This document shows, piece after piece, positions 8,894-27,054 of a DNA stretch of 64,000 nucleotides. The notes beneath the pieces are model-generated. The model had not been told where the DNA came from. It saw nothing but the letters and a program-made list of their open reading frames with translations, and made no database searches. Position 1 is the first letter of the stretch, and the number at the start of each line of letters is the position of its first letter. The stretch lies in IMG/VR virus record IMGVR_UViG_3300037395_000062, positions 1 to 64,000 of that record; one strand, given 5' to 3'. This DNA is from a virus. The translations under genes were made by a program, and so were the position numbers.

Positions 8894-8898
8894 TTTAT

Positions 8899-8974: not shown

Positions 8975-8980
8975 TTTCAA

Positions 8981-9051: not shown

Positions 9052-9053
9052 AT

Positions 9054-9129: not shown

Positions 9130-9132
9130 AAT

Positions 9133-9208
9133 GCGCGCGTGGCGAAATGGCAAACGCGTCCGGCTCAAACCCGGATTTCTGTAGGTTCGATCCCTACCGT
9201 GCGCACCA
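9133..9208 (+). tRNA. tRNA-Leu(CAA), short variable loop
   Basis: Acceptor GCGCGCG/CGTGCGC, stem TCCGG/CCGGA with loop CTCAAAC, T-loop TTCGATC, A73, CCA encoded. Again no long variable arm. Confidence 0.85.
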
Positions 9209-9212
9209 CCAT

Positions 9213-9288
9213 GGACCGGTAACTCAGTGGTCAGAGTGCCATCCTCTTAAGTTGGAAGTCGTGGGTTCAACTCCCACCCGGTCCCCCA
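9213..9288 (+). tRNA. tRNA-Lys(CUU)
   Basis: Acceptor GGACCGG/CCGGTCC, loop CTCTTAA in a stem with one T-T mismatch, T-loop TTCAACT, CCA encoded. Discriminator is C73 rather than the A73 usual for Lys. Confidence 0.85.
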
Positions 9289-9290: not shown

Positions 9291-9365
9291 GCTGGCATCT
9301 TCTAGTGGTAGGAAACCGCACTCGTAACGCGGCAACCGGGGTTCGATTCCGCCGTGCCAGCACCA
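9291..9365 (+). tRNA. tRNA-Thr(CGU)
   Basis: Acceptor GCTGGCA/TGCCAGC, loop CTCGTAA, T-loop TTCGATT, A73, CCA encoded. Last tRNA of the array, 23 bases before the HNH gene. Confidence 0.88.
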
Positions 9366-9388
9366 TTATCATCTGCTACAAGGCCATC

Positions 9389-10494: not shown

Positions 10495-10799
10495 TACGAC
10501 CCCCTGGATTTTGCATCGTCGATCACGATCTTCGCCGCAGCGGCCAGTTCAAGCGTGGAGTTTGCCCTACCCGCCGCATCTCCCTGTGCCGTGGCAAGAA
10601 GTGTATTCGTCTCGATCAACTTCTCCGTCTGGCCGTTCACCAGGTCATGCACATTCCGGATGCTTGCCTCGTTCTTGAAGCTCTGTGCGGCGGCTCGCTG
10701 ACTTTGAATCGCCGCACGCTGGCTCTGGATGTAGGTTAGAACCCCAATGGTCTGACCTACGCCGACAAAGAAAAGCGTGCCGATTTCGAAACCGGTCAT
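10494..10799 (-). CDS. Membrane-anchored coiled-coil protein, spanin/holin-like
   Basis: One N-terminal transmembrane helix (IGTLFFVGVGQTIGVLTYI) followed by a periplasm-sized Gln/Ala-rich helix, the topology of inner-membrane spanins. The ATG at 10799 overlaps the previous stop (ATGA). The longer reading (10814) is unnecessary. It lies between a small membrane protein and the muramidase. No o-spanin with lipobox is nested here; the nearest lipoproteins are at 1.7-3.9 kb. Confidence 0.55.
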   Translation of the reverse strand: MTGFEIGTLFFVGVGQTIGVLTYIQSQRAAIQSQRAAAQSFKNEASIRNVHDLVNGQTEKLIETNTLLATAQGDAAGRANSTLELAAAAKIVIDDAKSRGS

Positions 10800-10957
10800 C
10801 CGGGAAACAACCATCGAACCAGCGGTTCAAGGGCCACCACCCCGACTACCACACCAAACAGGAGAGCAGCGCCGACACAGCGCTTCAAATGCCTCTCGTG
10901 GCACCGTGCGCAATGGGTAAGCACGAGACCAACCCATCGGATGACTGAGCGCGTCAT
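10796..10957 (-). CDS. Small membrane protein of lysis cassette, 53 aa
   Basis: The start at 10957 overlaps the upstream stop (ATGA), giving MTRSVIRWVGLVLTHCARCH then one strong hydrophobic helix (ALLFGVVVGVVALEPLV). A CARCHERH motif precedes the helix. A holin or antiholin role is likely from position, but unproven. Confidence 0.5.
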   Translation of the reverse strand: MTRSVIRWVGLVLTHCARCHERHLKRCVGAALLFGVVVGVVALEPLVRWLFPG

Positions 10958-11202
10958 CGCGTGCTCAGCCATTTCAATATAGGGTCTATCCATCGGCTGA
11001 TAACCGCAACGAGGATGGCCGTGATGATCGTCGAGATCGTGCTCCCGAGAAAGCGCAACCAACCCCTGCGCCGCTCTCGTCGCCCCTCCTCTTCCTCTCT
11101 GCGGTGCCGCCAATAGAGCGCATCATCAGCCCCCCAGCCTGGAATTTCCAATGGATTAACGATGTGGTCACGGTGATGTCCCTCATTTTTATCTTCGGCC
11201 AT
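10954..11202 (-). CDS. Small membrane protein of lysis cassette, 82 aa
   Basis: A highly charged N-terminal half (RREEEEGRRERRR) precedes one transmembrane segment (STIITAILVAVISRWIDPIL). ATG at 11202. First gene of the coupled chain leading to the endolysin. Charge-then-helix topology fits a pinholin/antiholin-type regulator; family not identified. Confidence 0.55.
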   Translation of the reverse strand: MAEDKNEGHHRDHIVNPLEIPGWGADDALYWRHRREEEEGRRERRRGWLRFLGSTISTIITAILVAVISRWIDPILKWLSTR

Positions 11203-11338: not shown

Positions 11339-13645
11339 TCATTTTGGCGTCCACCACGTAATGGTCACTTCCGCAGCGCCGCCTACACCGCCAGGACCGC
11401 CAGTGCCGCCGCACCCAGCGCCACCACCACCGGCGCCGCCACCTCCTACGCCGCCATTGCCGCCAGTGCCGCCTTGCGTGGTTCCAGCGCCCGCGCCAGA
11501 GCCGCCACCGCCGCCCCAGCCTGCCGCCGCCCAGCCGGTAGCACCGTTACCGCCCGTGGCTCCGCCAGCGCTTCCAGCAGTGGTCGTAATGCCGTTCACC
11601 GACGATACGGCCGAGCCACCAGCTTGGGGCGTTCCGGTCGTGCATCCACCACCAGCGCCGCCGCCGGTAGACGCGCTTACAGATGATGCGCCACCGCCAG
11701 CCGCTCCGACTGCTGACGACCCGCCGCCGCCGCTCGCTCCCATTGGTCCGGTCGCGTTTGACCCTCCGACACCTGTTCCGCCGGCGCCGCCATTGAAGTT
11801 TGCACCACCGCCGCCCGCAGCTCCGGTGGAACTCCCTCCACTGCCGATGTTTCCAGCGCCACCGCCGCCGCCGGAGGCTAGCGCCGCCGCGCCACCCGCG
11901 CCACCACCGCCAGCGTAGGCGATCATGTTGTTATCAAGGCCGGTGATCCCAAAAAATGCAGTCCCGCCAACCGACCCATTTGCGCCAGCCGCCGCCGTGC
12001 ACGGGGCATTGATCGTTATTGATGCCACACCAGATGTCATCGACGCTGGGATCGGAGCAGGCGTCAGCTTTACGCCGCCGCCGCCGCCGCCGCCGCCGCC
12101 GGAACCCGACACGCCGCCCGTCAAAGATGGACCACCGCCGCCGCAGCCGCCCTGGCCCCGTGCCGCGACCGTGAATACCGACCCAATCGGGGGCGGCCAG
12201 TAATAAGTCCCGGCCCCTGTAAAGGTGATCTGCCCGCTGGATGGCACGCCGTCGCTGATTGCAAGCGAACCGACATTCGAGCCTCCAGCCGATGCGAAAA
12301 ACTGCGCCAGCGTCATATCCATAACGGCCAGCTTCGTCACAAAGCCGCCCGTTGAAACCGACGTAGCATTGCTCGCCGCGCTGTAGGAAAAATAGATCTT
12401 GCCGCCGACTTCGACCCACCATGGGTCAGCGATCTGACCGACTCCCGTGTTGACCCCCTCATCAGAAGTCAGTCGGGCAAAAAACGGGGTCGTTTTAACA
12501 GGCGTCCACGCCGTGGCATTGAGTGTCGGCGCGCTGAACAAGTAAATGTCTTCTGGCACTGCACCGGACGTGCCAAGCGTGCCATTTGTGGTGGTGGCGT
12601 GCGCGCCGATATACCATAGGCCATTGGTAAAATAGGGAGATGTCGGCCCACCGATCGCTGCGTTTCCAACAGTGCCGCCGCCCCCGGCCGAGCTTATGAC
12701 TGGGTTGCTGACAGGTTGCGAGACGGTGGACATATCGGTCGACGTGAAGAGACCGATCCCTCCGATCCCGCCAACGCTGTTCTGGTAGCCTTCCATGAAG
12801 ATATAGGCAGTGCCGCCGACGAAAATCATCGACGTGTTAGTGACGTTTGTTGCGTCCCAAGTCGCACCGCCGCCCGGCGTGATGAACGCACTCTTCAAGA
12901 CGGAATAGTTACCATAGGCGTTCGCTGATGACAGGAGATCGATCTGCGTCCACCCGGTATTTGCCGCGAGCAGGTAGTAGGCGGTTCCCGTCACGGCCAG
13001 CGGGCCAGAGACTCCGGGGGAACCGCTTAAGGTATAGGTCCCCCCCGCACCGGTTCCACTTACTCTCGCCGTGATATAGTAGGTATTCGAAGTGATCCCG
13101 GTTCCGTTGATATATTGGCCGTTTGTCCATTGCCCCGTGACGGTCCCAGCCACCGTCAGCGTAGAACCGCTGATCGTGCACGCGGAGCACGTCGCGGTAT
13201 TGAGGGTGACAGAAGATGACCGATAGCCCGTGGCGATCGTCGCCGCTGCCTTGTAGGGCCAATGGATACCGTCAGTGCTTTCGAGATATTCCAGGCTTGG
13301 CGTTCCCGGTCCGGCCGTGCCGATCAAGTGCCAGCATGATGTGAATTGCGCGGGGACAAGATTGCAGCTTGTGTCCGGCGCCAGGATCGTTGCCTCTGCG
13401 ACCAACCCTCCCGCCGATCCCATCTCGTATGGCAGCGTCGGGGAATTGATGACGCCCTGGCGCTGGATCACTCCCTTGACCGGAGGCGGTCCCGCATCCC
13501 CCAACTGCCCAGCCGAGTTGAACCAGGCTGCGTCGCCGGGGGTGCCGGTGGGCAGGGGCGGCGGCGTATACCCACTTCCCTGCTGCGCCTGGGCGACGCC
13601 GCAGACGAGAAGAAAGAACGCTGCGAAGATCCTGATGGTGTTCAT
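11339..13645 (-). CDS. Exported adhesin: beta-propeller-like domain plus polyglycine C-terminus
   Basis: 768 residues. Residues 1-20 (MNTIRIFAAFFLLVCGVAQA) are a clear Sec signal peptide. Residues ~60-470 contain repeated strand-turn motifs (ESTDGIHWPYKAAATI, STDMSTVSQPVSNP, DPWWVEVGGKIYFSYS) like the five-bladed propeller of GH43-type proteins. From ~500 to the end it is extremely Gly-rich (GGGGAGG, GGNGGVGGGG), ending EVTITWWTPK. Similar polyglycine sandwiches form the receptor-binding head of T-even-type gp38 adhesins. The ATG at 13645 has GAGG upstream. Last gene of the fibre cluster. Enzymatic activity cannot be judged. Confidence 0.65.
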   Translation of the reverse strand: MNTIRIFAAFFLLVCGVAQAQQGSGYTPPPLPTGTPGDAAWFNSAGQLGDAGPPPVKGVIQRQGVINSPTLPYEMGSAGGLVAEATILAPDTSCNLVPAQFTSCWHLIGTAGPGTPSLEYLESTDGIHWPYKAAATIATGYRSSSVTLNTATCSACTISGSTLTVAGTVTGQWTNGQYINGTGITSNTYYITARVSGTGAGGTYTLSGSPGVSGPLAVTGTAYYLLAANTGWTQIDLLSSANAYGNYSVLKSAFITPGGGATWDATNVTNTSMIFVGGTAYIFMEGYQNSVGGIGGIGLFTSTDMSTVSQPVSNPVISSAGGGGTVGNAAIGGPTSPYFTNGLWYIGAHATTTNGTLGTSGAVPEDIYLFSAPTLNATAWTPVKTTPFFARLTSDEGVNTGVGQIADPWWVEVGGKIYFSYSAASNATSVSTGGFVTKLAVMDMTLAQFFASAGGSNVGSLAISDGVPSSGQITFTGAGTYYWPPPIGSVFTVAARGQGGCGGGGPSLTGGVSGSGGGGGGGGGVKLTPAPIPASMTSGVASITINAPCTAAAGANGSVGGTAFFGITGLDNNMIAYAGGGGAGGAAALASGGGGGAGNIGSGGSSTGAAGGGGANFNGGAGGTGVGGSNATGPMGASGGGGSSAVGAAGGGASSVSASTGGGAGGGCTTGTPQAGGSAVSSVNGITTTAGSAGGATGGNGATGWAAAGWGGGGGSGAGAGTTQGGTGGNGGVGGGGAGGGGAGCGGTGGPGGVGGAAEVTITWWTPK

Positions 13646-13653
13646 ACCGGACC

Positions 13654-14163
13654 TCAATTCGAGATCGAGAGAGTAGTGCCGAGCGGCGAATAGAATGACG
13701 GCACCGCCGCACTTCCAGTGATGTTCTTGGTGTCAGATGCTCCGGCCGCCAGCAGCTCACCGCCCGATGTCGCCGAACACGTGTTGGCCAACCAGCAGAC
13801 GTAGGTCGGGTTCATGCCGGTATTCAGCGCGAACAGCCGCGCGAAGGCGCCCGCCGCCGGGATCGAGCCCGCACTGATGGTGACGTTGGCGGTGATGAGC
13901 GTCGTGCTCGTCGCCGCTGCCAGTGTCATGGTGCCTTGGTAGGTCGTGGCTGGTGTAGTGACCGGAAATTGCGTTCCGCTCGGTACGGTCACGGGAACCG
14001 GCAACGGTACCTTCGGGTTGGCACCCTTCGGGATCGGCCCTGACGGTTCCGTGATCTGAATGCCGTTGTTCGGGTCGTACACGCCGGAATTCTGGGCATG
14101 CGCAGCATGCGATGTCACGGTTCCGGCCAGAAGCAGGAAGATTATGGCTAAGGTGCGCATCAT
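13654..14163 (-). CDS. Exported fibre-cluster protein, 169 aa
   Basis: Signal peptide MMRTLAIIFLLLAGTVTSHA before AHAQNSG. The rest is Pro/Thr/Ala-rich beta-type sequence (VPVTVPSGTQFPVTTPATT) with two Cys (VCWLANTC). The ATG at 14163 overlaps the preceding stop. Likely a small fibre, tip or chaperone; no family recognised. Confidence 0.6.
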   Translation of the reverse strand: MMRTLAIIFLLLAGTVTSHAAHAQNSGVYDPNNGIQITEPSGPIPKGANPKVPLPVPVTVPSGTQFPVTTPATTYQGTMTLAAATSTTLITANVTISAGSIPAAGAFARLFALNTGMNPTYVCWLANTCSATSGGELLAAGASDTKNITGSAAVPSFYSPLGTTLSISN

Positions 14164-15410
14164 TGGATCACTCGAATGTTGTAGACCGAGATTGTCGGTG
14201 TTGCTGCGACGGCAGCGCACACCTTGACGGTCACGTTTCCAGCCGACGAAACATAAGCCGTCCAATAGATGCCATCGCCCGGATAGGTAACGGGACTTGC
14301 GGCCGCAACCATGGCTGTGGTGGCGTTTGGCACAGATTGTGTTGCCGATGCACACGCACCAGCAGCGAGCGCACTTCCGCCGATGTTGTTAGTCGTGCTT
14401 GTCAAAGCAAGCGCGATTGTCCCCGTCTGCGCGGGCAATATCCAGTTGTAGTTTGACGCCACTGCTGGTGGCTGGAGTTCCCCTGCCCCAGAGGTGGCGC
14501 CCGCCATTTGGATGTTCCCGGCATTCTGCCCCGCCTGGCCAAGCGTGATCAAGCCGTTGCTACTAGCCCGGATTATGTTGTTATTGCTGGAATTGATCAG
14601 TTGCAGCATCACGCTGCCGCTGCTGTTCGGCGATACGATGTGCACCTGATCGGTAGACACGCCAACACCGCCCACGAACAGATTCCCGGCCGTCGAAATG
14701 GAACCGTTTGGATCGCTATTCTGTAGACAATAATCGTTCGCGGGAGGCGACCCTGTGCCGCCGATCGCGGAACAATGATACGCTGTCCAGTCAGTCACGG
14801 AACCAGCCGCGCTGTTGTTGTTCACAAGCAGTGCGTTGAACCCGAGCACATTCCCCATAATGCCGGTCGGGTAATTGGTGCTGGCTGCTAGATATTGGGT
14901 GAAATTAGCGACCGTGCCAACATTTCCGAAGCTGGCTTCAAAGTCCTCATTGCCTCCGGCCTGGCTGTTGCATCCGGATTGGCACGTGTAGAACGCGTGG
15001 ATCACATTGACTTCGCTGTTGTCGATCCCCGGCCCATTCATGAACACCTGAGAGTTCATGTTTTCCCAGTAATTGGACGTATTCGTCGATGGGTTGAGCG
15101 TCACATAGAACTGATTCTGGCGATTGTCGGATGCAGCTGTGGCCAAATCAACCGCGCCCGTGAATTGTATGGCCGGCATCCCGTTCACCGGCAGCGCAAA
15201 CGTCGATCCGCCGATCTGATACCCTGTCGAGGCCGTGGTATTGATCCCGCCGCTATCGACAATACCGACCGTTGTCAGTTGTCCGGTCAGCGTGCCGCCG
15301 GCCAGCGGCAGATACGCGACGCTGCCGCTGGATCCGCCGGTCACCTGATCGGCGTTGGACGCGGATGCCGCGACGATGAGCAGCAGTGCCAGGAGAAGAC
15401 GACGCATCAT
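14160..15410 (-). CDS. Tail-fibre-like protein with signal peptide
   Basis: 416 residues. Sec signal MMRRLLLALLLIVAASASNA, then YLPLAGGTLTGQLTTVG, a motif frequent at the start of phage tail-fibre repeats. The middle has Asn/Gly/Ser-rich beta sequence (LQNSDPNGSISTAGNLFVGG) as in trimeric fibres. Four-Cys content (CQSGCNS, HCSAI) is unusual for a cytoplasmic virion protein and fits an oxidising compartment. Coupled by ATGA to the next gene. Confidence 0.7.
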   Translation of the reverse strand: MMRRLLLALLLIVAASASNADQVTGGSSGSVAYLPLAGGTLTGQLTTVGIVDSGGINTTASTGYQIGGSTFALPVNGMPAIQFTGAVDLATAASDNRQNQFYVTLNPSTNTSNYWENMNSQVFMNGPGIDNSEVNVIHAFYTCQSGCNSQAGGNEDFEASFGNVGTVANFTQYLAASTNYPTGIMGNVLGFNALLVNNNSAAGSVTDWTAYHCSAIGGTGSPPANDYCLQNSDPNGSISTAGNLFVGGVGVSTDQVHIVSPNSSGSVMLQLINSSNNNIIRASSNGLITLGQAGQNAGNIQMAGATSGAGELQPPAVASNYNWILPAQTGTIALALTSTTNNIGGSALAAGACASATQSVPNATTAMVAAASPVTYPGDGIYWTAYVSSAGNVTVKVCAAVAATPTISVYNIRVIQ

Positions 15411-15411
15411 G

Positions 15412-15912
15412 CTACTGCACCTGGCCGCTGAAGAATGCCGTGGCGGACGCGGTTTTTGTGAAGCATCCTGTCGAGCTGAACACTGTGGTTATGCCTGCCG
15501 AGAATAGCCAAGCAGCGGCACCCGGATCAGGAGACAGTCCGATCGTCTGGTTGGCGGGGACGTACAGGCATTTGACTGGCAAAACACTGCCATCGGACGG
15601 CGGCGTGGTTGCGTTGAACACCATCAGGTAGCCAGGCGTGGCACCGCTGGTCACGGCAAAGCCCAGGGCGAGACCTGCGGACGCTTTGAATACGTGGCTG
15701 GATTCGACGGACGTTGACACGATCGGTGTCGTCGAACTGTAGGCGAGCGAGGCTGGAAACGGGTTTACCGTCGAGAACTGATTGCCTTGATAGTCGGCAA
15801 CTCCAGCCATAAGGCCCGGCCATATGGGATAGCTCGTGGCCTTCGCTCCGGCGATGAACAGCAGGATCGCCGCCACCGTCCTCAACGCAACGCTTTTCGT
15901 TCGATCCGTCAC
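15412..15912 (-). CDS. Exported fibre-cluster protein, 166 aa
   Basis: GTG start. The N-terminus TDRTKSVALRTVAAILLFIAG then AKA fits a signal peptide. The rest is beta-rich with two Cys (KCLYVP, GCFTK). Sits between fibre-like genes; role unknown. Confidence 0.55.
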   Translation of the reverse strand: MTDRTKSVALRTVAAILLFIAGAKATSYPIWPGLMAGVADYQGNQFSTVNPFPASLAYSSTTPIVSTSVESSHVFKASAGLALGFAVTSGATPGYLMVFNATTPPSDGSVLPVKCLYVPANQTIGLSPDPGAAAWLFSAGITTVFSSTGCFTKTASATAFFSGQVQ

Positions 15913-15922
15913 CTGCCGCCTC

Positions 15923-16564
15923 CTATCCGATGATCCAACTGAGAACCGTACCGCTGACCATGCCGCAGGTCGCCCACACGGCGTCCGTGGTGGTGAAGTT
16001 CGAGCCCGCTGGAGGCCACGACCCGAACGGCGGAATGATAGCGCTCGGCACCGATCCGCTGGCCGGCGCGGACGCGCCTCCGATTATCAACCGCACGGAA
16101 TCGATCTGCGACGTGTTGAACAACTGCAGCGCGTTGCGCGCACCGCTGGCAACGACGGCGGAGTAGGCACCCGAACCGAGCGACACGAAGCCGCTCGTCG
16201 TGGGACCTGCGTTGTTCGCCACGAACCCTGGGCCTGCCGCGAACTGCGACCCGACGACGATAGATACGCTGCCCGGCGGCACCACCACGATCTGCCCATT
16301 CAACGGCGTGAACGGCGCCTGCAATGTTCCCGGAGCCACGACGGCCGTCGTGCCGGCCTGGTCCTCCGTTATCCCGAAGCAGGTCAGCGTACCCCACGAG
16401 CCGGATACCGGCCCGAACGCGCAGTTCACGTTCGTCAACTGTACGCCACCGACGAAGGTGTCGAACGTCACCGGCTGACCGGCGTAGTTCGTCCCTCCGG
16501 GCGGCGTAACCACGACGCTGCCTGATATCGCCGTGCCGAGCTGCAGGTAGCCGTTGCTCGCCAT
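15923..16564 (-). CDS. Fibre-cluster protein, 213 aa
   Basis: Beta-rich sequence with TPPGG, VVVPPGSVSIVVGSQFAAGPG and SGTVLSWIIG. No signal peptide. The ATG at 16564 lies five bases after the preceding stop. The open frame continues upstream to 16657, inside the previous gene. Possibly a virion decoration, base or fibre-attachment protein. Confidence 0.55.
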   Translation of the reverse strand: MASNGYLQLGTAISGSVVVTPPGGTNYAGQPVTFDTFVGGVQLTNVNCAFGPVSGSWGTLTCFGITEDQAGTTAVVAPGTLQAPFTPLNGQIVVVPPGSVSIVVGSQFAAGPGFVANNAGPTTSGFVSLGSGAYSAVVASGARNALQLFNTSQIDSVRLIIGGASAPASGSVPSAIIPPFGSWPPAGSNFTTTDAVWATCGMVSGTVLSWIIG

Positions 16565-16568
16565 GCGA

Positions 16569-17024
16569 TCAGCCGTGATATATCTGATTGCCGCCGGCGA
16601 AATAGTAAGGCACGACGGTGCCGGTCGCCTGCGTGTAGGCCACACCGCTCGATCCACTGCCGATGATGCCGCTCACGGTCGGCGGATAGACCGACAGCCC
16701 GCTGACGCCGAAATTGCCAACGAAGACTGGATACGGAACCGCATTTGGCGGAGGCAGTTGACCTCCAGTACCCGATGCCACGGTAGAGAAAAACGCCCCT
16801 TGGGTCGTAATCGGCGTGGCGTTGCCTATGCCGCTTCCCGCCGCGGTCAAGCCGGACGCCACGGTGCCATAGCCAGCCGCACCCATCGCTCCCGACATCA
16901 CGGAAGCCATCGCTCCCTGGAAATTGTAACTTCGGCCGGGACCTGACTGCTGATCGAGGTTGGCAAAGAACTCGCCGGGATTCAGCAGCCCGAGCGGGAT
17001 GGACGGAGTCGAGGCTGAACCCAT
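16569..17024 (-). CDS. Fibre-cluster protein, 151 aa
   Basis: The ATG at 17024 has AGGAGA at ideal distance. The product is Gly/Ser/Ala-rich (GAMASVMSGAMGAAGYGTVASG). First gene of the leftward fibre-lysis unit and divergent from the beta-propeller gene at 17116, so both promoters should lie in 17025-17115. No convincing -35/-10 pair is visible there. Confidence 0.55.
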   Translation of the reverse strand: MGSASTPSIPLGLLNPGEFFANLDQQSGPGRSYNFQGAMASVMSGAMGAAGYGTVASGLTAAGSGIGNATPITTQGAFFSTVASGTGGQLPPPNAVPYPVFVGNFGVSGLSVYPPTVSGIIGSGSSGVAYTQATGTVVPYYFAGGNQIYHG

Positions 17025-17115
17025 CGGTGCGTCTCCTGACGGAAAGCCGCAGGCTACCCCGCGACGGATACGCTCCCCATGCCGGGACGTTTCGGTACGT
17101 GATAGCGTCGCGGAC

Positions 17116-18876
17116 ATGAGCGCTCCCGAATGGTTCTGGCCTCCGTCCGGCGCGACGGCGCGCGGCATCGCGCTGGCGCCGTTCGCATCCGGAATGGCGG
17201 TCGCGGACTGGACCGAGCCGGTACTGTGGCCCTATGAATCGGGAGCGCTCGGTGCCGCACTTCCGGTATCCGCCGGGCCGTACGGGTTCGCCGGCGCGGC
17301 CTCCGATACGTCCGGAGGATTGTGGTGCGTCACCTGGGACGGCGTCCTGTCGCACGTCAGCGGCGGTGCATCATCCGGCGCGGTATCGGCTACGATGCCT
17401 TCCGGCCAGATATACATCGGCTGCGCGTACGCGGCCGGCAGCGGCTTCGCGGTAGCCGCTTCGGGCAACGTCTACGCGTCAACCGGTACGTTGTTGGCTG
17501 CGTTTCCGCTTCCCGGGCGACCGATCGCCGCTTCCGGCGGCACTATCCTGTCGTGCATGTCCGTCTCCGGAATCGGCACGATGAACGCGGGCAACGGCGC
17601 CACCGGGTTCGTCGCCCTGCCGTCCGGCATGACGGTGATGTCGTGCATCGCGGCCGCATCCGGTTTCCCGCTCGCGGCCGCCGGCTGGGCGAACGCAGCG
17701 CCGCTGTCCGGCTGCGCCGCCGGAGCGCTCGATCCGCAGGATGCTTTATTCATGCTCGGTATCGGATCGGGGAGTGCCGTCCTGTGGTCGTCGCCCGGCA
17801 TATTCGCGGACGCGTGGGCGCAAATCCAGACCGTCACCGGCTTGGCATCGTTGTCCTCCGTATGCTGGAGGCCGGACGGCACGCAGGCCTTGGCAGTCAG
17901 TCCGGTATCCGGGCAGGTGCAGGTACTGCCGTTCACCGCAGGCGTATTGTCGGCGGGGCAGATCTTGTCCGTATCCGGCGCATGCTCCACAGCCATAGCG
18001 GGCGATTCCGTGCACGCATTGGTCGCCCAGTCGGGACAGGCGCAGGCGACGGCCTTGACCTACACTGGCAGCACATGGTCGACGACGACGGCGGTAACCG
18101 GGCTGACGGGCATCGTCGCGGTCGCACCGTACGGCGCAAGCGGTGCTGTCGCCGCCGTATCCGGTGGCATACGCTACCTCAACCTGTCCGTCGGGGCGTG
18201 GTCGCTCGGAGCGCTGGTGGCGGTTCCGTTCGTGCCGACCGCGCTTACCGTCGATACGTTCGGCCAGGTCTATGTCGCGGGCTCCGGGGCGGTCGCCATG
18301 GCGTCCGGTGCGTTCCTTCTAGCGAGCGGAACGTGGGCGGGTGCGGCACCTACCGCGATCGCGGTGCAGCAGGGTCGCATCGTCATGGCGGTACCGGGCG
18401 ACAGCCTGCTGCGCGTATTCGGCCTCTCGGCACCCGGCACGCTTTCCCAGCAGGCGCATACCGCGTTGTCGCTCGGCGCAAGCGTAGGGTTGGCGCTGTC
18501 GACGACCACGCTGTTCGTCGGCGGTTCGGGAGCCACCGAGACGTTCGGGTTTTCCGGCAGCGCCTACGCGCTGACGCCGGTGCGGTCCGGTTCCGTGGGA
18601 TTCTGGAGCGGATCATCCTGGTCGACGCTGGGACTCGGCGTCGGCCATCTGCCGTCCGCGATCGGTCTCGATGCCTCCGGGAGTGCATGGGTGACGACGA
18701 AACAGAACACGCTATGGCAGGTAAGTTCCGGCGCCGTCGCACTGTCGTCCGGGATCGTGTCGCAATATCCCGGGCAACCACAGACTGTGCCGATCTCGCC
18801 GTCTTCCGTGCTTGCCGGCGCCAGCGGGGTGTTCGTCGCCACTTCGATTCCCGGTGTTTTGGTCCAGGTGGCCTAA
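17116..18876 (+). CDS. Beta-propeller-like structural protein
   Basis: 587 residues made of roughly repeating blades with Ser/Gly-rich turns (SGVAVAASGNVYASTGTLLA-like, GVAVAASG, LDASGSAWVTTKQNTLWQV), comparable to NHL/WD-type propellers. It opens the rightward baseplate operon and ends three bases before the next start. Position before the gp53/gp25/J-like genes suggests a baseplate or tail-periphery protein. ATG at 17116; the longer open frame from 16960 overlaps the divergent gene and is rejected. Confidence 0.6.
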   Translation: MSAPEWFWPPSGATARGIALAPFASGMAVADWTEPVLWPYESGALGAALPVSAGPYGFAGAASDTSGGLWCVTWDGVLSHVSGGASSGAVSATMPSGQIYIGCAYAAGSGFAVAASGNVYASTGTLLAAFPLPGRPIAASGGTILSCMSVSGIGTMNAGNGATGFVALPSGMTVMSCIAAASGFPLAAAGWANAAPLSGCAAGALDPQDALFMLGIGSGSAVLWSSPGIFADAWAQIQTVTGLASLSSVCWRPDGTQALAVSPVSGQVQVLPFTAGVLSAGQILSVSGACSTAIAGDSVHALVAQSGQAQATALTYTGSTWSTTTAVTGLTGIVAVAPYGASGAVAAVSGGIRYLNLSVGAWSLGALVAVPFVPTALTVDTFGQVYVAGSGAVAMASGAFLLASGTWAGAAPTAIAVQQGRIVMAVPGDSLLRVFGLSAPGTLSQQAHTALSLGASVGLALSTTTLFVGGSGATETFGFSGSAYALTPVRSGSVGFWSGSSWSTLGLGVGHLPSAIGLDASGSAWVTTKQNTLWQVSSGAVALSSGIVSQYPGQPQTVPISPSSVLAGASGVFVATSIPGVLVQVA

Positions 18877-18879
18877 GCA

Positions 18880-19557
18880 GTGACCCAGACGTTCCGCACT
18901 ATCCCTGTCGGACTCGGCACGCAGCCCGCCGTCTATCAGCTATCGATCCGCGCGCCCGGACAGACCTTCGCCGAACTCAGCACGTATACCTTTCCGTTGT
19001 CGCCGTCGCGGTTGCGCATGGCCCGTTCGTCGTTGTCGAGTTTCGTCGATACGCAGGGGTCGGCCTCATCGCAGGGCGTCACCCGGGTGATGGACGTCTA
19101 CGGCCTGGCGCCGCCGATCTATACCATCGAAGGGACGACCGGCTGGGACCGGCACATGTCTGACGGCTATGTGCTGACCGGGCTGCAGTCGATGCAACTG
19201 CTCGCGGCTTTCCTCGCCCAGTACGCCACGTTGAACCAGCAGCAGCGCGCGAGCGGCAACCCGAACTACTATACCCTGGAGTTCTACGACTATTTCGGCG
19301 ATAATTTTTGGCAGGTAGAACCGATCGGACCCCAGATATTCAACCAGAGCAACGACCGGCCGACGTTGATCTACTACCGGTTCAGTTGGGCAGCCGTGAA
19401 GCCGGCCGGCGTTCCGGTGCTCGGCGTCGTCGACGCGCTGGCCGGCCTGGTCTCGTCGTCCGCGGCCCAGGCTGCGATCAACGCGGCGCAGACGCTAGGC
19501 GCCTTCACCACCGCCTATGCGCCGTTCGGACTCTCCGGCACGTCGGTATTGCCGTAG
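18880..19557 (+). CDS. Baseplate/tail protein, 225 aa
   Basis: GTG start. Contains YTFPLSPSRLRMARSSLSSF, VYGLAPPIYTIEGTTGWDRH and LEFYDYFGDNFWQVEPIGPQ, resembling a conserved phage protein found ahead of gp25-like genes in myoviruses of this type. Probably a baseplate or hub-cap component. Couples to the next gene by TAGTG. Confidence 0.6.
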   Translation: MTQTFRTIPVGLGTQPAVYQLSIRAPGQTFAELSTYTFPLSPSRLRMARSSLSSFVDTQGSASSQGVTRVMDVYGLAPPIYTIEGTTGWDRHMSDGYVLTGLQSMQLLAAFLAQYATLNQQQRASGNPNYYTLEFYDYFGDNFWQVEPIGPQIFNQSNDRPTLIYYRFSWAAVKPAGVPVLGVVDALAGLVSSSAAQAAINAAQTLGAFTTAYAPFGLSGTSVLP

Positions 19558-20993
19558 TGTCGTACGAACCACCATTCGCGGGCTATCCCGGCACGGTATT
19601 CGCCACCTGCTGGCAATCGGCGGCGTGGCTCTCGACGCTGCTCGCGGGCGGCTCCGCGCCGATCGCGAGCATCGCCAACGGCGCGACGGCGGCGTTCCGG
19701 ACGTTCATGAATGGCGCCGACGCGGTAGCAGCATGGCAGGCGGCCAACGCGTTCGCTCAGGAGCAGATAAACCTGGCTGCGGTCGACGCGCTGCCGCTCG
19801 GCTTGGATCCAGCCACCCAGGCATATTTCACCGCTCGGTTGGGTTCCGTCGCGGCGGCCGCGAGCGGGCTTGCAGTGCTGCCGCCGCAGGTCAGCCCGTT
19901 CGATGCGGTGGCGCTGCTGAGCGCGGGACAGCCGGCCGTTCCGGACTCGGGCTACCTCGAGTGGTGCGCCGGATTCGCGGCCGAGACCCCGCCGTCCGGA
20001 CTGGTGTCGCCGGGATCGCTCGTGACGTATGCGACCGGTGCGGCGACGGCATGGTTGACGGTGACCAACGCGGTGCGCATGCTGCAGGGCGCGTCCTTGA
20101 CCCAGGCGTTCGATACCGCCGCGCGCCAGTTCCGGGTATCGTCCGTGGTGGCGACCGGACTGGCTTCTATGACCGCTGGCGGCTTTACTGAAACGGACAT
20201 CCCGGCACTGTGGAACGGCGCCGTGGCGATGCCGTCGCTTCTGCTGGACGCCGGATCGCTGACGTCATCGCCGGCCTTCCTCGGCAACCAGCAGGGCGGA
20301 GCCATCCGCGTCGCCCTGCGCACGCTGGCACTGCAGACCGCCTACCTCGTGCTGTCGCTGCGGTCGACGATAGCGTCCGGCAGCGTAGCCACCGCTTCGC
20401 TGCGACGCAACGAATCGCTGATGGATCTTGCCGCCCGTGCGGCTGGCGGGTTCGAGGCTTGGTCCTCCATCGCGGCGGTCAACAACATCCAGCCGCCATA
20501 CCCCGGACCGACGAACCAGGCCGTGGCGGCGTCCGGTACGGTGCTGCTGATGCCCGGCAGCGTCGTCGCTCCGTCCGGCAGCGCGGCACCGACATACGCA
20601 GCCAACGTGCTCGGCACCGACTACGACTTCGGACCTATAAACGGTCCGCAACCGCCATGGCTGGGTGACATATCCCTGATCACGGGGTACGCCAACTTCG
20701 CACGCGCGCTGGGGCGACGCCTCCAAACTACGCTCGGTACGCTGGTCTATCATCCGGGCTACGGCAGCCGCATTCCGCTGGAGGTCGGGGCCATCCAAGG
20801 CAGCGACGAGGCGCGGCGGCTCGCGGCGTTCGGCAGGGCGGCGTTGGCTGCCGATCCCAGGACGGCGAGCGTAGTGAGCGCCACGGCGTCGGTGCGGCCG
20901 GGATTCCTGGCAACCTTCTACGGCACCGTGGTACCTGTAGGACCCGGCGCTGTTCCCGTATCCGTCAACGAGGTCATCAACCCCTTGCCGTAG
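19557..20993 (+). CDS. Baseplate wedge protein with LysM-like and gp25-like domains
   Basis: 478 residues from a GTG overlapping the upstream stop. At ~280-330, RRNESLMDLAARAAGG...WSSIAAVNNIQPPY has LysM-like spacing. The C-terminal ~90 residues (TTLGTLVYHPGYGSRIPLEVG, then RAALAADPRTASVVSA) match the T4 gp25 / P2 W / XkdS lysozyme-like baseplate wedge fold. It should join the baseplate inner ring next to the J-like protein. The fusion of both domains in one chain is compact. Confidence 0.7.
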   Translation: MSYEPPFAGYPGTVFATCWQSAAWLSTLLAGGSAPIASIANGATAAFRTFMNGADAVAAWQAANAFAQEQINLAAVDALPLGLDPATQAYFTARLGSVAAAASGLAVLPPQVSPFDAVALLSAGQPAVPDSGYLEWCAGFAAETPPSGLVSPGSLVTYATGAATAWLTVTNAVRMLQGASLTQAFDTAARQFRVSSVVATGLASMTAGGFTETDIPALWNGAVAMPSLLLDAGSLTSSPAFLGNQQGGAIRVALRTLALQTAYLVLSLRSTIASGSVATASLRRNESLMDLAARAAGGFEAWSSIAAVNNIQPPYPGPTNQAVAASGTVLLMPGSVVAPSGSAAPTYAANVLGTDYDFGPINGPQPPWLGDISLITGYANFARALGRRLQTTLGTLVYHPGYGSRIPLEVGAIQGSDEARRLAAFGRAALAADPRTASVVSATASVRPGFLATFYGTVVPVGPGAVPVSVNEVINPLP

Positions 20994-21002
20994 GAGAGAC
21001 GC

Positions 21003-22217
21003 TTGTCCAGCAGCCTGACGCCGACAGTAGCGGCCGCACCGACGACGGTACAGACGACGGCCAACATGGTCGCGCTGATGGCTGCCCAGACGAACGTCCC
21101 CACCGACTACAACCCGGGCTCGAACGTACGCACGCTCGACGAGGCACTGGGCTCCGTGATCGAGATCCAGGCGGTATCCGATCAGGCGTTGAGCTTCCAG
21201 GCTTTGGCCTACGGGGCGATGTCGCTGTTCGGAGTGCTGTCTGCGCAGGCAACGTTCGCCACGGGCACCGTGACCATGGCCACTTCGTTCCCGGTGGTTT
21301 CGGCGCAGCCGACCACCCAAGCCGTGTTGATCCCGTCAGGCACGCTGGTGCAGACCGCTGGCAGTATCCAGTTCGCGACCATCGGCCAAGCGACTCTGGC
21401 GTCCGGCACGTCGAGCGTCTCTGTCGGCGTCATAGCCTCCTTGGCCGGCAGCGCCGGAAACGTCGCCGCGTCGGCGATCACCGGCCTTCCAATCACGTCC
21501 ATCGGCTATCCGCTCTACGTCGCCAACGGCGCACCTACCGGCGGTGGAAACGATGCCGGCACGCAATCGTCCGCGCTCGCGCAGTTCACCGCCCGGCAGG
21601 CCTCGCTTGGGTTGTCGTCGCCTGTGGCCGTCGCCAACTCACCGATCGGCGTCACCGTCAGCGGTACCGGCGAGATGGTGATGTTCGCCGCTGCCTTCGA
21701 GCCCTGGCTCGCGGCAGGCAGCGGCATGGGATCCGGCACCGCCGGATGGATACTCTACATCGACAACGGTACAGGAGGCGCCAGCAGCAGCCTGATCGCA
21801 GCCGTAGACGCATGGATAACCGGCAACGCGTCCGCCGGGCAGAGTGGGTTTCGTCCGGTCGGGGTGCCGTATCAGGTGCTCGGCGTTACGCCGGTATACG
21901 CCTCGGTCGCGGCATCCGGATCCCTAATCCCTGGCTTGTTCTCCTCCGGTACGGTTCCCGCCGCCGCCGCCAGCGGGATTCAAGCATACTTCAACGCGCT
22001 CGGCATATCCGCACCGTCCCCCGGAGGCTCTACGGGGCTCAACGCGGCAAGCCAGCCACAGATCGCGGCGCGGGTAGCGGATGCCGGTGCCGGTTCGTAC
22101 GCGTCCCTGGCTGTGACGCTGACCTATTCCGCGGCATCCGGCACACCGGTGCCGATCGTCAGCGGCGGTGTCGGCACGCGTGTCATACTAAACAGCCTGA
22201 CCGTCAACATACAGTAG
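21003..22217 (+). CDS. Baseplate protein J-like (T4 gp6 family)
   Basis: 404 residues from a TTG with GGAGAGA upstream. N-terminal TDYNPGSNVRTLDEALGSVIE and the central VLIPSGTLVQTAGSIQFATIG segment are characteristic of baseplate J proteins, which form the wedge ring controlling sheath contraction. C-terminal RVADAGAGSYASLAVTLTY follows the family layout. Sits directly after the gp25-like gene, the usual order. Confidence 0.8.
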   Translation: MSSSLTPTVAAAPTTVQTTANMVALMAAQTNVPTDYNPGSNVRTLDEALGSVIEIQAVSDQALSFQALAYGAMSLFGVLSAQATFATGTVTMATSFPVVSAQPTTQAVLIPSGTLVQTAGSIQFATIGQATLASGTSSVSVGVIASLAGSAGNVAASAITGLPITSIGYPLYVANGAPTGGGNDAGTQSSALAQFTARQASLGLSSPVAVANSPIGVTVSGTGEMVMFAAAFEPWLAAGSGMGSGTAGWILYIDNGTGGASSSLIAAVDAWITGNASAGQSGFRPVGVPYQVLGVTPVYASVAASGSLIPGLFSSGTVPAAAASGIQAYFNALGISAPSPGGSTGLNAASQPQIAARVADAGAGSYASLAVTLTYSAASGTPVPIVSGGVGTRVILNSLTVNIQ

Positions 22218-22221
22218 CAAT

Positions 22222-23235
22222 ATGAATTTCGCCGCCGTCCTCGCGCAGCTAAGCGACCTGCCTGCCACGTTCATGCCGTCGGGAAACCCGTACGGACAGT
22301 TCGTCAACGCGCTCGCGGCGGCCGAGACTTTGTACACCGCAGGCGCCGATGCGACGGTGCAGCAGGTGATCGCCTTCCAGAATGCGATCGACGGGTGGAT
22401 CGACCTGTGGGGCTTGATGTTCGAAGTACCTCGCAACCAAAGCGAGGGGAACATACCGTACTCCCTGCGCATTGCCGAAACCGTATTGGCATGGGTCGGC
22501 ACGCTGCCCGCCATCCAGATATGGCTCAACCTGTTCGCGCCCGGCGGCAGCGTCACGGAGAATGCCTCAGGCAGCGGCTATGTCATAACCCTGCCGTCGT
22601 TTCTCACGCAGGCGCAGATCACCGCGTTCGTGGCATCTCTGGGGCGGATACGGCCGGTCGGCGTGCCTTTTACGGTCCTGTCTTCCCGCTCCGGCGTGTA
22701 CCTCGGTAGCGAGGCGTTTCTTGGCGATGGGGTGGACTACGGTTCGTACCTGACCGGTGGTATATCTCCGCTGTCGCTCGGTCTCGGTGCGACGACCTGC
22801 AGTGCACAACCACTGGTGCCTGATCTCTATCTTGTCGATCCCAATCTCGCCCAGCCCGGTCTACTGTCGCGCGGGCTGCAGGGTATTTGGCCGCCTTTAA
22901 ATCAACCGGTACAGCTACGTAACAATCAGTCCGTGCCGGTGCAGATAACCGGGCTGGCGAATAACGGCGGCGTGCTGCAGGTGCTGAACCTGACTGGTTG
23001 GCTGCCGTCCGGAACCGGACTGCCGGCTGGCGGTTTGTGGAGTCCAGACTTGGGAGGTCTAGCCTACGTCGTGCCTGGTGCCACACCCAATCCGTCCGCG
23101 CCGCCTGTCATATTCGGGCTCATAACGGCCGCGGCGCTGCTGGCACTCGGAGGTGCCAACCTGCCTACCACCGATCCAGGCAACGCGCTACAGATATGGA
23201 ACAACGAGGGATTCCTATGCGTATCATTGGGTTGA
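22222..23235 (+). CDS. Baseplate/tail protein I-like (fibre attachment)
   Basis: 337 residues. The N-terminal ~160 residues (WIDLWGLMFEVPRNQSEGN, then YSLRIAETVLAWVGTLPAIQ) resemble tail protein I/DUF2313-type baseplate proteins. The C-terminal part is beta-rich. Follows J as in P2-like modules. Its 3' end overlaps the tailspike start by 19 bases. Confidence 0.65.
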   Translation: MNFAAVLAQLSDLPATFMPSGNPYGQFVNALAAAETLYTAGADATVQQVIAFQNAIDGWIDLWGLMFEVPRNQSEGNIPYSLRIAETVLAWVGTLPAIQIWLNLFAPGGSVTENASGSGYVITLPSFLTQAQITAFVASLGRIRPVGVPFTVLSSRSGVYLGSEAFLGDGVDYGSYLTGGISPLSLGLGATTCSAQPLVPDLYLVDPNLAQPGLLSRGLQGIWPPLNQPVQLRNNQSVPVQITGLANNGGVLQVLNLTGWLPSGTGLPAGGLWSPDLGGLAYVVPGATPNPSAPPVIFGLITAAALLALGGANLPTTDPGNALQIWNNEGFLCVSLG

Positions 23236-25715
23236 TCTTTTGCTTTTTGATCTGCTCGTCGAGCGGCGCGTGGGCAGAAGGCCTGTGCTCCAGCACAAAC
23301 CTGTCGGCGTGTCCGAACGGTCCCTTCAACACCGTGGTGGCGAATACGGTGACCGCCGGTGTTTCACCATCGACTGTTACCGTTCCCTCGATCCAAACGA
23401 AAACGCTTCAAGTCATGCTGCAGCGGCTAGTCGGGCATGTTTCGGTTCTGGAGTACGGAGCGGATCCGCTCGGCAATATCGACTCCACGGCGGCGATTCA
23501 AGGTGCCATCAACGCTGCCGCCGGCACGTATCCGAGTTTGGGTGGATCAGTCGACCTATACCCCGGAAACTACAAGATCAGTTCGCCCGGGCTTATCATA
23601 GGCAACGGCGGCGGCAGCGTGGGATCACCCTCGACCGTCAGCGGCATCAAGCTGGTCTGCGTAGCGGCATGGGCCGGCGGCGGAAACAACGATAACGCGT
23701 GCAATCTCAATTCGAGCTACGCCGGCCCAGCGATAACGGTCAATGGCCCCATTCAGGGATGGGGTCTTGAGAATATCGGGATTGTCGCGAACACCACCAG
23801 CACATCGGCGGGGGGACTTCTCGTCAACTCAGGACAGTGGGGTAAGGTTGACGGTTTGTTGGTCTCTGATTTCTACGATTACGGCATAAAGTTGACGACA
23901 TCGGGCGCCACGCCGAGCGACCAGAACGTCTTTCGCCAGATCAACATCGTCACGCCGACTGGCGGAACTACGGCAGTCGGCCTCTACATCGGATGCCCGC
24001 AAGGCGGGGGATGTGAGGGCAGCTTCAGCGATAGCTTCGACGACACGTTCATCGCCGTCAACAACCCTGGGGCGACCGGGCTTTATGCTGGATCGTCGGA
24101 CAGCGAGAGGTTCCGCAATCTAACGTTCGCCAACAGTGCAGCGGGCAACAAGGACATCGTCTTCGATTACTCGCAGGCGAACAATAACGCGTGGCCGTCC
24201 AACTACTTACTCTATGGGCTGGAGACCGGCAACGGCAACGTGGGGGCAATAACTAACATCGGGACGCCTCCCTACACCTTAAACGAGCACAATATCGTCT
24301 ATGCATTCTCGCGGACTAACGGTGCGCCATATCCGGTGCTGCCGAACCTGATCCTCGCAGACCTCATCGGCAAGCAGGGCGTCGATCTGCGTGAGTTCGG
24401 CGACGTTCCGGACGACACTACCGATAACTCGACAGCGATGCAGAACGCGCTGACGTGGGCGGCGACCAGCGGCGGGACCCTGCTAATCCCACCGGGGACG
24501 ACCTACTACGCCGTCGGGCCGACCGCCACGTTGCCTGCTAACGCTACCGTTACGTTCCAGGGGCAGGGTCCAAACCTGTCGCTCCTGCGCCCCGCGTCCG
24601 GTCAGAACGGCCTGACTCTGCTCTCCGGAACGGCGCAGTCGTCGATCCACGTTGACGGCATCGGGTTTCTGGCGAGCGGCGCCGGGGCCGGAGACGCGAT
24701 CCACTTCACGGCCAACGGCGCCACGGTGTTTTCCCAGACCACGGTGATTAGCAACGCGACATTCCGGGGCGCGGACGGCTACGGCGCCTCCGATTACTGG
24801 GCCAATGGCTTTTACACCGACCTCGTCAGCAACATTAATTTCCTGAACGATACATTTTACGGCACCAATGGAACATACCATGGTACCGGGATAAATCTCG
24901 CGGGCGGGACTGGCCTCGGGGTGATATACAACGTATCGGCTTCCAACTTTCAGGCGCTGAATAAAGGCATAAATCTGGGAAACAACATTCAGGGCTTAAC
25001 TATTTCCCAGGGCAATTTCACGCCAGATAACTACGGTGTCTATGTCGGACCCGGCCTGAGTGGTCTCGATCAGATTTCGGTCGTCGCGTCACAGTTTAAC
25101 CAAAACACCGTCGGCATTGATCTACTGTCCCCCGTGGTGAACGTCGTTCTTTCCGGTGGAAACCTCTTTTCGGTCAATGCCACCAACGAGACCGCAATCT
25201 ACATTGCCGAAGCCGATCAGTGCTCGATCACCGGCAACGCGATTAACGGAATCAATTTCACGATCCCGTCCAGCGCAATCGGTATCGACATCGAAGGTGT
25301 CGAAGGCACGAGAGGTTGCGCGATCTCGGGCAACAGCATGAGTCTCTTGGATACGGCGGTTAAACTCGGCTCAGGTACGGCATGGAATAAGGTCTCCGGT
25401 AATCAGTGGGGACAGAACAATACAAAAATAACCTCGGCTAGCATAAACAACGAAATTTCCGGCCTAGGCCTTCTCTCGACCACCGTCACCAACGCGGTTA
25501 ACGATGAATCGGGGGGCACCTTGCTAACCGTTGGCTCCACCTCAGGCTTTGTCACTGGGGAGTGGGTCATGGTAGCCGGCGTCGGAGGTATTCCGATCTT
25601 AAGCGCGGCGGGTTTAGCCCAGATCGTGGTGTCGGACTCGTCGCATCTTGACCTCGTAAACACCGGATTTGGGGGGACCTATACGTCCGGCGGCGTGGTC
25701 TGGGCGGTGCCGTGA
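23217..25715 (+). CDS. Right-handed beta-helix tailspike with signal peptide
   Basis: 832 residues. ATG with GAGGG six bases upstream. Residues 1-20 (MRIIGLIFCFLICSSSGAWA) form a Sec signal peptide. Two pectate-lyase-type heads occur in tandem: LEYGADPLGNIDSTAAIQ at ~80 and LREFGDVPDDTTDNSTAMQ at ~391, each followed by GG(S/T)(V/L) strands, then beta-helix rungs (GVYVGPGLSGLDQISVVASQ). Such spikes bind and often depolymerise surface polysaccharide. The C-terminus VTNAVNDESGGTLLTVG to SGGVVWAVP is a short beta domain. Confidence 0.75.
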   Translation: MRIIGLIFCFLICSSSGAWAEGLCSSTNLSACPNGPFNTVVANTVTAGVSPSTVTVPSIQTKTLQVMLQRLVGHVSVLEYGADPLGNIDSTAAIQGAINAAAGTYPSLGGSVDLYPGNYKISSPGLIIGNGGGSVGSPSTVSGIKLVCVAAWAGGGNNDNACNLNSSYAGPAITVNGPIQGWGLENIGIVANTTSTSAGGLLVNSGQWGKVDGLLVSDFYDYGIKLTTSGATPSDQNVFRQINIVTPTGGTTAVGLYIGCPQGGGCEGSFSDSFDDTFIAVNNPGATGLYAGSSDSERFRNLTFANSAAGNKDIVFDYSQANNNAWPSNYLLYGLETGNGNVGAITNIGTPPYTLNEHNIVYAFSRTNGAPYPVLPNLILADLIGKQGVDLREFGDVPDDTTDNSTAMQNALTWAATSGGTLLIPPGTTYYAVGPTATLPANATVTFQGQGPNLSLLRPASGQNGLTLLSGTAQSSIHVDGIGFLASGAGAGDAIHFTANGATVFSQTTVISNATFRGADGYGASDYWANGFYTDLVSNINFLNDTFYGTNGTYHGTGINLAGGTGLGVIYNVSASNFQALNKGINLGNNIQGLTISQGNFTPDNYGVYVGPGLSGLDQISVVASQFNQNTVGIDLLSPVVNVVLSGGNLFSVNATNETAIYIAEADQCSITGNAINGINFTIPSSAIGIDIEGVEGTRGCAISGNSMSLLDTAVKLGSGTAWNKVSGNQWGQNNTKITSASINNEISGLGLLSTTVTNAVNDESGGTLLTVGSTSGFVTGEWVMVAGVGGIPILSAAGLAQIVVSDSSHLDLVNTGFGGTYTSGGVVWAVP

Positions 25716-25743: not shown

Positions 25744-27054
25744 ATGAACTACCCCAACTTCACCGATCCGCAGTTCCTTGACGCCAACGCGCCAGGCGGC
25801 TTGAATCAGGCCTTCGGCACGGTATCAGGTGCTTTCGCTTTGATGGGTAGCGGAGTGTGGGCCGCACCCGGCCTGCTTGCTCCCGATTCAATGACTTTAT
25901 CGTTCGCGGGCATGACCGCTACGGTAGGCCTCCCGCTTCCGTGGAGCCTGGTATGGTCCGGCGGTGCCGTCGTCAACGCACACGGATCCCAGACCGGCAT
26001 AGACACGCAAAGCTATTCGGTGTCGTTCGCCTCTCTGGTACCCGCCAGCGGATCGCTGACCGCCTATCTCGCGGCGTTCGTCAATTCGATACAGCAAAAC
26101 CCGTTTCCGATCCCAGGACCTCCACCCGGTCATCCGGCCTATGATCCCGCCTTCGTGCCGGTGGTCGGCTACGCCACCAACGTGTACAGCGTGTCGTTGA
26201 CCGCGGTCACCGGCGGAATCGACAACGTGAACACGTTCGAACTGTTCCGCACCACGTTGACCGCTGGACAGACGAACATTTCCGCCGTCAACACCGTCGG
26301 TCAGGTGCGTGCAACACAGCAGTTGGCGAAGGCCCAGATCCGCGTATCGACAGGTGGCCTGCTTACCGCTTCGCAGGCGTACTACGTGATATCGCCGACC
26401 GTATCCGGACTCACCCACACGCTGCCGCCAGCGAGCGGCGCGGGTGGACTGATCTACACGCTGGTCAATCCGACCGCGGTGTGGACGATAGCCGCTACAG
26501 GAACGGACAGGATCGCGGGCTCCGGCGTCGCCAATGGTCTGGCCAGTTTGACCGTACCTGTATCCGGTGCGATGCAGCTATGGGCCAACGCAGCGTCCGG
26601 CACCTGGAATATCATCGGTGCATCGCCAGTCCCGGCGGTAAATCTACTGCCGCTTAACAATACATGGACAGGTAACAATACTTTCAATAATTCGGTTGCT
26701 GTTTCAGGTGCGACATCCGCGAATCATGCAGTCAACCTAGGGCAGTTTGTGTCGGAGTGGACCGGAACCAATGACGGCTATGAGACGCTTCCCGATAATA
26801 CGATTGATCTCACTTACTTCGCTGTTGCACCGTATAACGGTACAGGTTTTTTAACGACGAACATAACACTACCAGATGGCTTGTTTCCGAATCAAATACT
26901 CGATGCTTCTGTGTGCTTCAATGGAAATACACCTCCCCTGAACGTAGCGATCAGCGTGCAACCTTCCACGCGAGTATCGGTGAACGTTACCACAAACTCA
27001 TCCGGCGGTGTCGGTGGCAATGCCGGAATCACTCTACGTATGCGCGGTAACTAG
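25744..27054 (+). CDS. Tail fibre protein
   Basis: 436 residues. ATG with AAGGAA upstream. MNYPNFTDPQFLDANAPGG opens it. The C-terminal region has TWTGNNTFNNSVAVSGATSA, a typical fibre repeat, and ends in a small beta domain. No signal peptide, unlike the tailspike before it. Ends nine bases from the convergent hub gene with no terminator between. Confidence 0.65.
   Translation: MNYPNFTDPQFLDANAPGGLNQAFGTVSGAFALMGSGVWAAPGLLAPDSMTLSFAGMTATVGLPLPWSLVWSGGAVVNAHGSQTGIDTQSYSVSFASLVPASGSLTAYLAAFVNSIQQNPFPIPGPPPGHPAYDPAFVPVVGYATNVYSVSLTAVTGGIDNVNTFELFRTTLTAGQTNISAVNTVGQVRATQQLAKAQIRVSTGGLLTASQAYYVISPTVSGLTHTLPPASGAGGLIYTLVNPTAVWTIAATGTDRIAGSGVANGLASLTVPVSGAMQLWANAASGTWNIIGASPVPAVNLLPLNNTWTGNNTFNNSVAVSGATSANHAVNLGQFVSEWTGTNDGYETLPDNTIDLTYFAVAPYNGTGFLTTNITLPDGLFPNQILDASVCFNGNTPPLNVAISVQPSTRVSVNVTTNSSGGVGGNAGITLRMRGN

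Follow-up and report, generated by a model that had tools for sequence, protein, structure and literature searches.

Tail fibres set the host range of tailed phages, and in the textbook account they are mounted on the virion in the cytoplasm. Some virion proteins do use the export machinery of the host: the filamentous-phage coat proteins pIII and pVIII pass through it and are assembled at the membrane by extrusion. In diderm bacteria, a signal with a basic n-region and an A-x-A site directs a protein to Sec export and to cleavage by signal peptidase; the periplasm there is an oxidising compartment. Tailspike-less P22 particles bind tailspikes in vitro by self-assembly.

Late phage proteins that pass through the host Sec system before lysis are known among endolysins (fOg44 Lys44; SAR endolysins) (PMC6116005); they are enzymes of lysis rather than fibres or tailspikes. 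Exported lysogenic-conversion proteins such as lambda Lom bear signal peptides and have their genes close to those of tail fibres (PMC12309495); Lom forms a barrel in the outer membrane and is no fibre with a virion-type N-terminus, Collar or tip domain. Phages of Porphyromonas gingivalis encode proteins whose Sec signals are host-adapted (Q-rule) and whose function is unknown; they were not linked to tail fibres in that report (PMC10367356). One study took a lack of signals in DGR targets to indicate phage origin (PMC6199706). No account of Sec-exported tail fibres was found in the open-access literature, most subscription papers lying outside its scope; the fibres themselves are known, and the export route is new as far as that literature shows.

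The window analysed here is a stretch of 64,000 nucleotides, bases 1-64000 of a 94,109-base metagenome virus contig. A contractile-tailed phage is encoded in it (sheath 32545-34341, tape measure 28790-31210, baseplate genes 18880-23235), whose host is probably a diderm bacterium. The fibres and tailspikes described below resemble those of known tailed phages (Collar phrog_1858; KP32/KpV92-type capsule-depolymerase) in gene position after the baseplate, N-terminal motifs, Collar domain, beta-helix body and beta-sandwich tip. They differ in a cleavable-type Sec signal and in being Cys-rich with even counts; the known relatives that were checked carry no signal. Unlike in filamentous phages, the rest of the virion, as known from its genes, is a normal contractile-tailed particle, and the window endolysin (9958-10494) gave no signal-peptide call.

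Tail module and signal peptides of the window phage

The genes concerned were as follows.

9958-11202, - strand, lysis cassette after the exported-fibre cassette: small membrane proteins (10494-11202) and GH108 endolysin (9958-10494; PF05838, E 3.5e-17; phrog_315 endolysin, E 1.5e-33)
11339-13645, - strand, predicted exported large fibre/adhesin, 768 aa, Gly-rich C-terminus; signal peptide ~13586-13645, score 4.96; mature form with 8 Cys; no family or phage homolog
13654-14163, - strand, predicted exported protein 3, 169 aa; signal peptide ~14095-14163, score 5.55; mature form with 2 Cys; no family or phage homolog
14160-15410, - strand, predicted exported fibre protein 2, 416 aa; signal peptide ~15351-15410, score 5.89; C-terminal tip domain 1
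15412-15912, - strand, predicted exported fibre protein 1, 166 aa, GTG start; signal peptide ~15838-15912, score 5.2; C-terminal tip domain 2
15923-16564, - strand, fibre protein without signal peptide, upstream of the exported cassette; PF23140 (podophage GP4 fibre I gp80), E 1.7e-5, slightly under the cut-off
16569-17063, - strand, small protein that opens the leftward cluster; no signal-peptide call, no family
21003-22217, + strand, baseplate-J-like gene; phrog_6, E 3e-17
22222-23235, + strand, baseplate/tail protein I-like gene without signal peptide, after the baseplate-J-like gene and directly upstream of the tailspike; phrog_7378 baseplate protein, E 7e-4
23217-25715, + strand, predicted exported tailspike, 832 aa; signal peptide 23217-23276, score 5.35; phrog_2234 tail spike, E 3.8e-9; GAGG ribosome site upstream
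25744-27054, + strand, second rightward fibre-like protein; no signal-peptide call, no family

The sequence-only reading had assigned Sec signals to five proteins in two clusters, several with Cys pairs. Strong Sec/signal-peptidase-I signals were confirmed on all five, the four consecutive proteins of the - strand (11339-15912) and the + strand tailspike at 23217, so that both orientations hold; the Cys pairs hold as well, with mature Cys counts of 8, 2, 6, 2 and 8, all even. The starts lie at 15912 (GTG, GGAGG upstream), 15410, 14163, 13645 (GAGG upstream) and 23217 (GAGG upstream), and the signals, in that order, are MTDRTKSVALRTVAAILLFIAGAKA^TS, MMRRLLLALLLIVAASASNA^DQ, MMRTLAIIFLLLAGTVTSHAAHA^QN, MNTIRIFAAFFLLVCGVAQA^QQ and MRIIGLIFCFLICSSSGAWA^EG. 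Every start follows or overlaps the preceding gene and is backed by a ribosome site or a tight overlap, which rules out a wrong-start-codon artefact.

By rule-based prediction, the signals have the basic n-region, hydrophobic h-region and A-x-A-type site of a Sec substrate, behind a start codon with a ribosome site. The caller detects 22 of 27 E. coli signals, which were used for calibration only. The five window proteins scored 4.96-5.89 and the E. coli positives 3.9-5.3; the same caller found no signal in 10 neighbouring fibre and baseplate genes. A score of 4.9 was reached by 0.07% of shuffled N-termini of contig ORFs and by 2 of 401 internal Met starts, and none of 2000 shuffles of each of the five reached its own score; a chance origin was thereby ruled out. 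A scan of the whole contig (94,109 bases, 106 ORFs) lists three of the five, the true starts of the other two lying deep inside their longest ORF. Its only other strong call was a lipoprotein-type signal at 3008-3487, so that signals occur solely on fibre-like proteins and lipoproteins.

Two signals of lipoprotein type (LSGC, VAAC), which may be spanin-like, were seen on the - strand at 1658-1909 and 3008-3487. A 22 tRNA gene array occupies 6381-9288 and is followed by an HNH-like endonuclease ORF (9305-9961).

The tailspike lies after the baseplate genes, and the - strand cluster lies after the GP4-gp80-like gene and before the lysis genes. Among the five proteins a tail-family match was found for the tailspike only, which also gave a pectate-lyase-like match (PF12708, E 1.8e-5, under the curated cut-off); the - strand proteins gave no whole-length family. 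Fibre or tailspike homology or fold was found for 23217 (phrog_2234) and for 14160 (tip fold like phage tail-type proteins), and no homolog was found for the 11339 and 13654 proteins, whose fibre identity is putative. No close relatives of the tailspike or of baseplate J were found in IMG/VR, and INPHARED held no relative of the tailspike or of the 11339, 13654, 14160, 15412 or 15923 proteins; the tailspike signal therefore cannot be compared across orthologs in these collections. The 15923-16564 protein is a possible cytoplasmic anchor or adaptor. Two other identities were rejected for the five: an autotransporter or two-partner adhesin, since none has a C-terminal beta-barrel or TPS Pfam family, and a secreted or SAR endolysin, since none has a peptidoglycan hydrolase family behind the signal.

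Two tip domains and their cysteines

Tip domain 1 is formed by the last 80 residues of the 14160-15410 protein (14163-14423) and contains Cys353 and Cys398. It was modelled by AlphaFold2 as a beta-sandwich (pLDDT 94). Among viral models it is matched best by phage proteins, with a putative tail fibre protein among them and, further down the ranking, a Salmonella phage tailspike; weak matches among solved structures include pyocin-fibre and tailspike domains. Otherwise the tip domains gave only chance antibody and GAPDH matches among solved structures. In the model, Cys24 lies on strand 24-30 and Cys69 on strand 63-70, and an antiparallel pairing of the two strands would bring them face to face.

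About 65 virus or prophage loci were reached from the two tip domains of the window. Domain 1 was sampled in 33 IMG/VR loci using search patterns that leave out its Cys positions, and the sampling was extended to other viral contigs, an acidobacterial prophage-like locus that adjoins a terminase-like gene (L004), a Geomonas Mu-like prophage (L005) and acidobacterial genomes. The sequence-only reading would have been refuted had relatives lacked the signals; they are present in relatives. Signal peptides were found in 36 of 37 domain 1 homologs with the Cys pair, and 6 of the 8 without the pair had no signal (Fisher p 2e-5; 7e-5 after 75% clustering). The exceptions were L026, with a Cys pair and no visible signal in a broken frame, and L123 and L151, with a signal and no pair. 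As read from these sequences the association is one-way: the Cys pair accompanies export, and export is possible without the pair. It corresponds to five to six changes on a poorly resolved domain 1 tree, a number with which a phylogeny-aware test cannot reach significance. L018 was scored positive by eye, and signal status was left out for L006, L021, L032, L035, L099 and L124 (truncated or broken). In L007, L019, L027/L097, L101, L172 and L178, which are frameshifted or late-start ORFs, a signal-bearing start was found upstream or further in.

Acidobacterial chromosomes (L117-L120, L122) encode non-prophage exported proteins with the domain 1 Cys pair and a signal, and the domain can therefore serve a non-virion role. 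These proteins point to swapping of surface-binding modules between hosts and phages.

Tip domain 2 lies at 15415-15774 in the 15412-15912 protein, with Cys115 and Cys150 (TGCFTKTA motif), and is also predicted to be a beta-sandwich (pLDDT 84), its best viral fold matches being uncharacterised phage proteins. It was found in 33 viral loci, with a signal peptide in every locus whose start could be determined. Both Cys are invariant in 27 aligned sequences; a search pattern covers the second but hardly ever the first. Two distant homologs, from cultured Caulobacter and Octadecabacter phages, have neither of the Cys nor the signal, the homology being tentative (E 1.6e-4 and 5e-3, nominal database 100,000). 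Domain 2 fibres are practically absent from cultured phages, which may explain why export went unnoticed. The best domain 2 fold match is a protein of Ralstonia phage RSK1, and the 15923-16564 protein resembles PF23140; Ralstonia phages may be cultured relatives of the 15923-16564/domain 2 fibre type.

An even Cys number was found in 41 of 47 mature exported fibres (p 2e-7) and in 26 of the 32 with more than two Cys (p 5e-4), both p values ignoring relatedness. Conserved paired Cys and an even Cys number, as in disulphide-bonded exported proteins, are thus present. Gln follows the predicted cleavage site in 22 of 47 signal-bearing fibres, resembling the Bacteroidetes Q-rule, although the known hosts of such fibres are Acidobacteriota and Geobacterales.

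Signals on fibres of known phage families

In Geobacterales Mu-like prophages the gene after gp48 encodes the tail fibre, which starts without a signal in L146 (M-GKTVFNAGDK) and L147 (M-AKTVFSDGNP). At the same locus, the fibre in the Geomonas sp. Red32 prophage (L152) carries one, MFKRALFTLLILLLPAAAMA^GKTVFVDGNP (...AAAMA^GKTVFVDGNP), and the predicted cut leaves exactly the N-terminus of the signal-less fibres after Met removal. The sister fibre P0002 (L005) is a phrog_1858 tail fibre (E 1.5e-39, residues 20-318, to the end) with a Collar domain. A second such pair is formed by the KISALP-type fibres of cultured phage DSL-LC05 (M-ADTKISALP) and contig L029 (...VAAFA^DTKISALP). Judged by these alignments, the signal is an extra element on an otherwise normal fibre. 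It is not a general property of tail fibres, since the 39 complete Collar-domain fibres examined from other viral contigs all lacked one.

Three Geobacterales prophages (L148, L149, L151) encode baseplate J, gp48, a small signal-less protein and then a signal-bearing tailspike as the only large fibre. The tailspike body of L149 resembles the Klebsiella KP32-type tailspike (E 2e-15), and the KP32-type member has no signal. The small proteins between gp48 and the tailspike (L148 2118-2612, L149 8260-8661, L151 9939-10337), one of which bears a weak resemblance to a phage depolymerase C-terminal domain, may be virion-side docking sites.

These comparisons bear on whether the hydrophobic N-termini are cleaved at all. 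Tail assembly is normally cytoplasmic, and a hydrophobic N-terminus does not by itself prove cleavage, the signals being predicted; the segments might stay uncleaved in the virion for packing or membrane piercing, with cytoplasmic assembly and no export. Such use is highly improbable, as basic n-region, hydrophobic core and A-x-A site are all there, even Cys counts and the Cys-signal association suggest an oxidising compartment, and the predicted cleavage coincides with the N-terminus of signal-less orthologs. Export and oxidative folding of window-type fibres are instead predicted with high confidence, because the signals, the association with Cys pairs, the even Cys counts and the restored fibre N-terminus all support them.

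The same families bear on where the genes came from. The acidobacterial chromosomal proteins with the same tip domain would fit recent capture of host surface adhesins, or lysogenic-conversion cargo, which would be fibre-like by accident and carry inherited rather than phage-selected signals. That origin is improbable: the signals are kept across very diverse phages and fibre bodies, the bodies and N-termini are those of phage families (phrog_1858, Collar, KISALP-type, KP32-type tailspike), and the genes sit within tail modules.

Proposed assembly at lysis and its consequences

The reading somewhat favoured here takes the proteins for true tail fibres, tailspikes and fibre tips that a contractile-tailed phage has diverted into the Sec translocon of its host. 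After cleavage by signal peptidase I, the mature chains would fold in the periplasm and, under its oxidising conditions, be stapled by disulphides; capsid, tail, baseplate and signal-less adaptor proteins would meanwhile assemble in the cytoplasm. Once the co-oriented lysis cassette had opened the inner membrane, virions would come into contact with the fibres waiting in the periplasm and take them up by self-assembly. The receptor-binding parts would thus be built in another compartment than the rest of the virion.

Attachment to the virion at lysis, as deduced from gene order and N-termini, has a slightly better than even chance of being correct. What makes it the best explanation is that the sole tailspike after the baseplate is often the signal-bearing gene, and virion use is favoured because that gene can be the only large fibre and keeps a virion-type N-terminus. 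The neighbourhood of the lysis genes recurs: viral contig L192 has the window order of signal-bearing cassette, small membrane proteins and GH108 endolysin, and its endolysin is 42% identical to that of the window (E 5e-29). Behind the L192 endolysin lies a twin-Arg lipoprotein (6412-6852), similar to the lipoprotein-type signals of the window.

Runs of four or five consecutive signal-bearing proteins were found in L101, L168 and L173, as in the window. The last gene of the L168 array (7833-8309) has a twin-arginine-like signal (RRKFLL), and going by that motif some phages with such arrays may also use Tat.

Runs of this length exceed expectation for virion fibres and suit a less probable, still substantial alternative, that the proteins are exported depolymerases, adhesins or decoys outside the virion, periplasmic or released at lysis. 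They might clear polysaccharide around the burst cell, keep progeny off debris or block superinfection. The homologous domains in chromosomal acidobacterial exported proteins and the position of the window cassette beside lysis genes also fit such roles. So do the signal-less fibre candidates of the window phage (25744-27054, 15923-16564), given which the phage may have receptor-binding parts besides those that it exports. Against this, the signal-bearing genes occupy the canonical fibre position after tail protein I/gp48, as the sole large fibre in L148, L149 and L151, and the Collar fibre retains its usual N-terminal domain, restored by the predicted cleavage, which a free enzyme would not need. 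A mixture of virion fibres and free envelope proteins is possible.

The sequence-only reading had seen a coherent system of exported fibres and tailspikes in this phage and had offered secreted decoys, late attachment outside the inner membrane and surface enzymes released at lysis as explanations. The coherence stands, and the system is far wider than this phage, recurring in unrelated phages; of the mechanisms, late attachment is favoured by the sole signal-bearing tailspikes and the restored N-terminus, and lysis-released enzymes or decoys are the less probable alternative.

The chances are evenly balanced that a large, undescribed class of environmental tailed phages makes a cytoplasmic particle and periplasmic, disulphide-stapled receptor-binding fibres that are joined at lysis. 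If so, fibres could use disulphides and periplasmic chaperones, virions would complete themselves during or after lysis, and fibres could pass between particles or phages in the lysate. The heuristic that a signal peptide argues against a virion role (e.g. for DGR targets, PMC6199706) would then be unsafe, and the sequence rule of signal peptide, even Cys number and fibre position would find receptor-binding proteins that annotation has missed.
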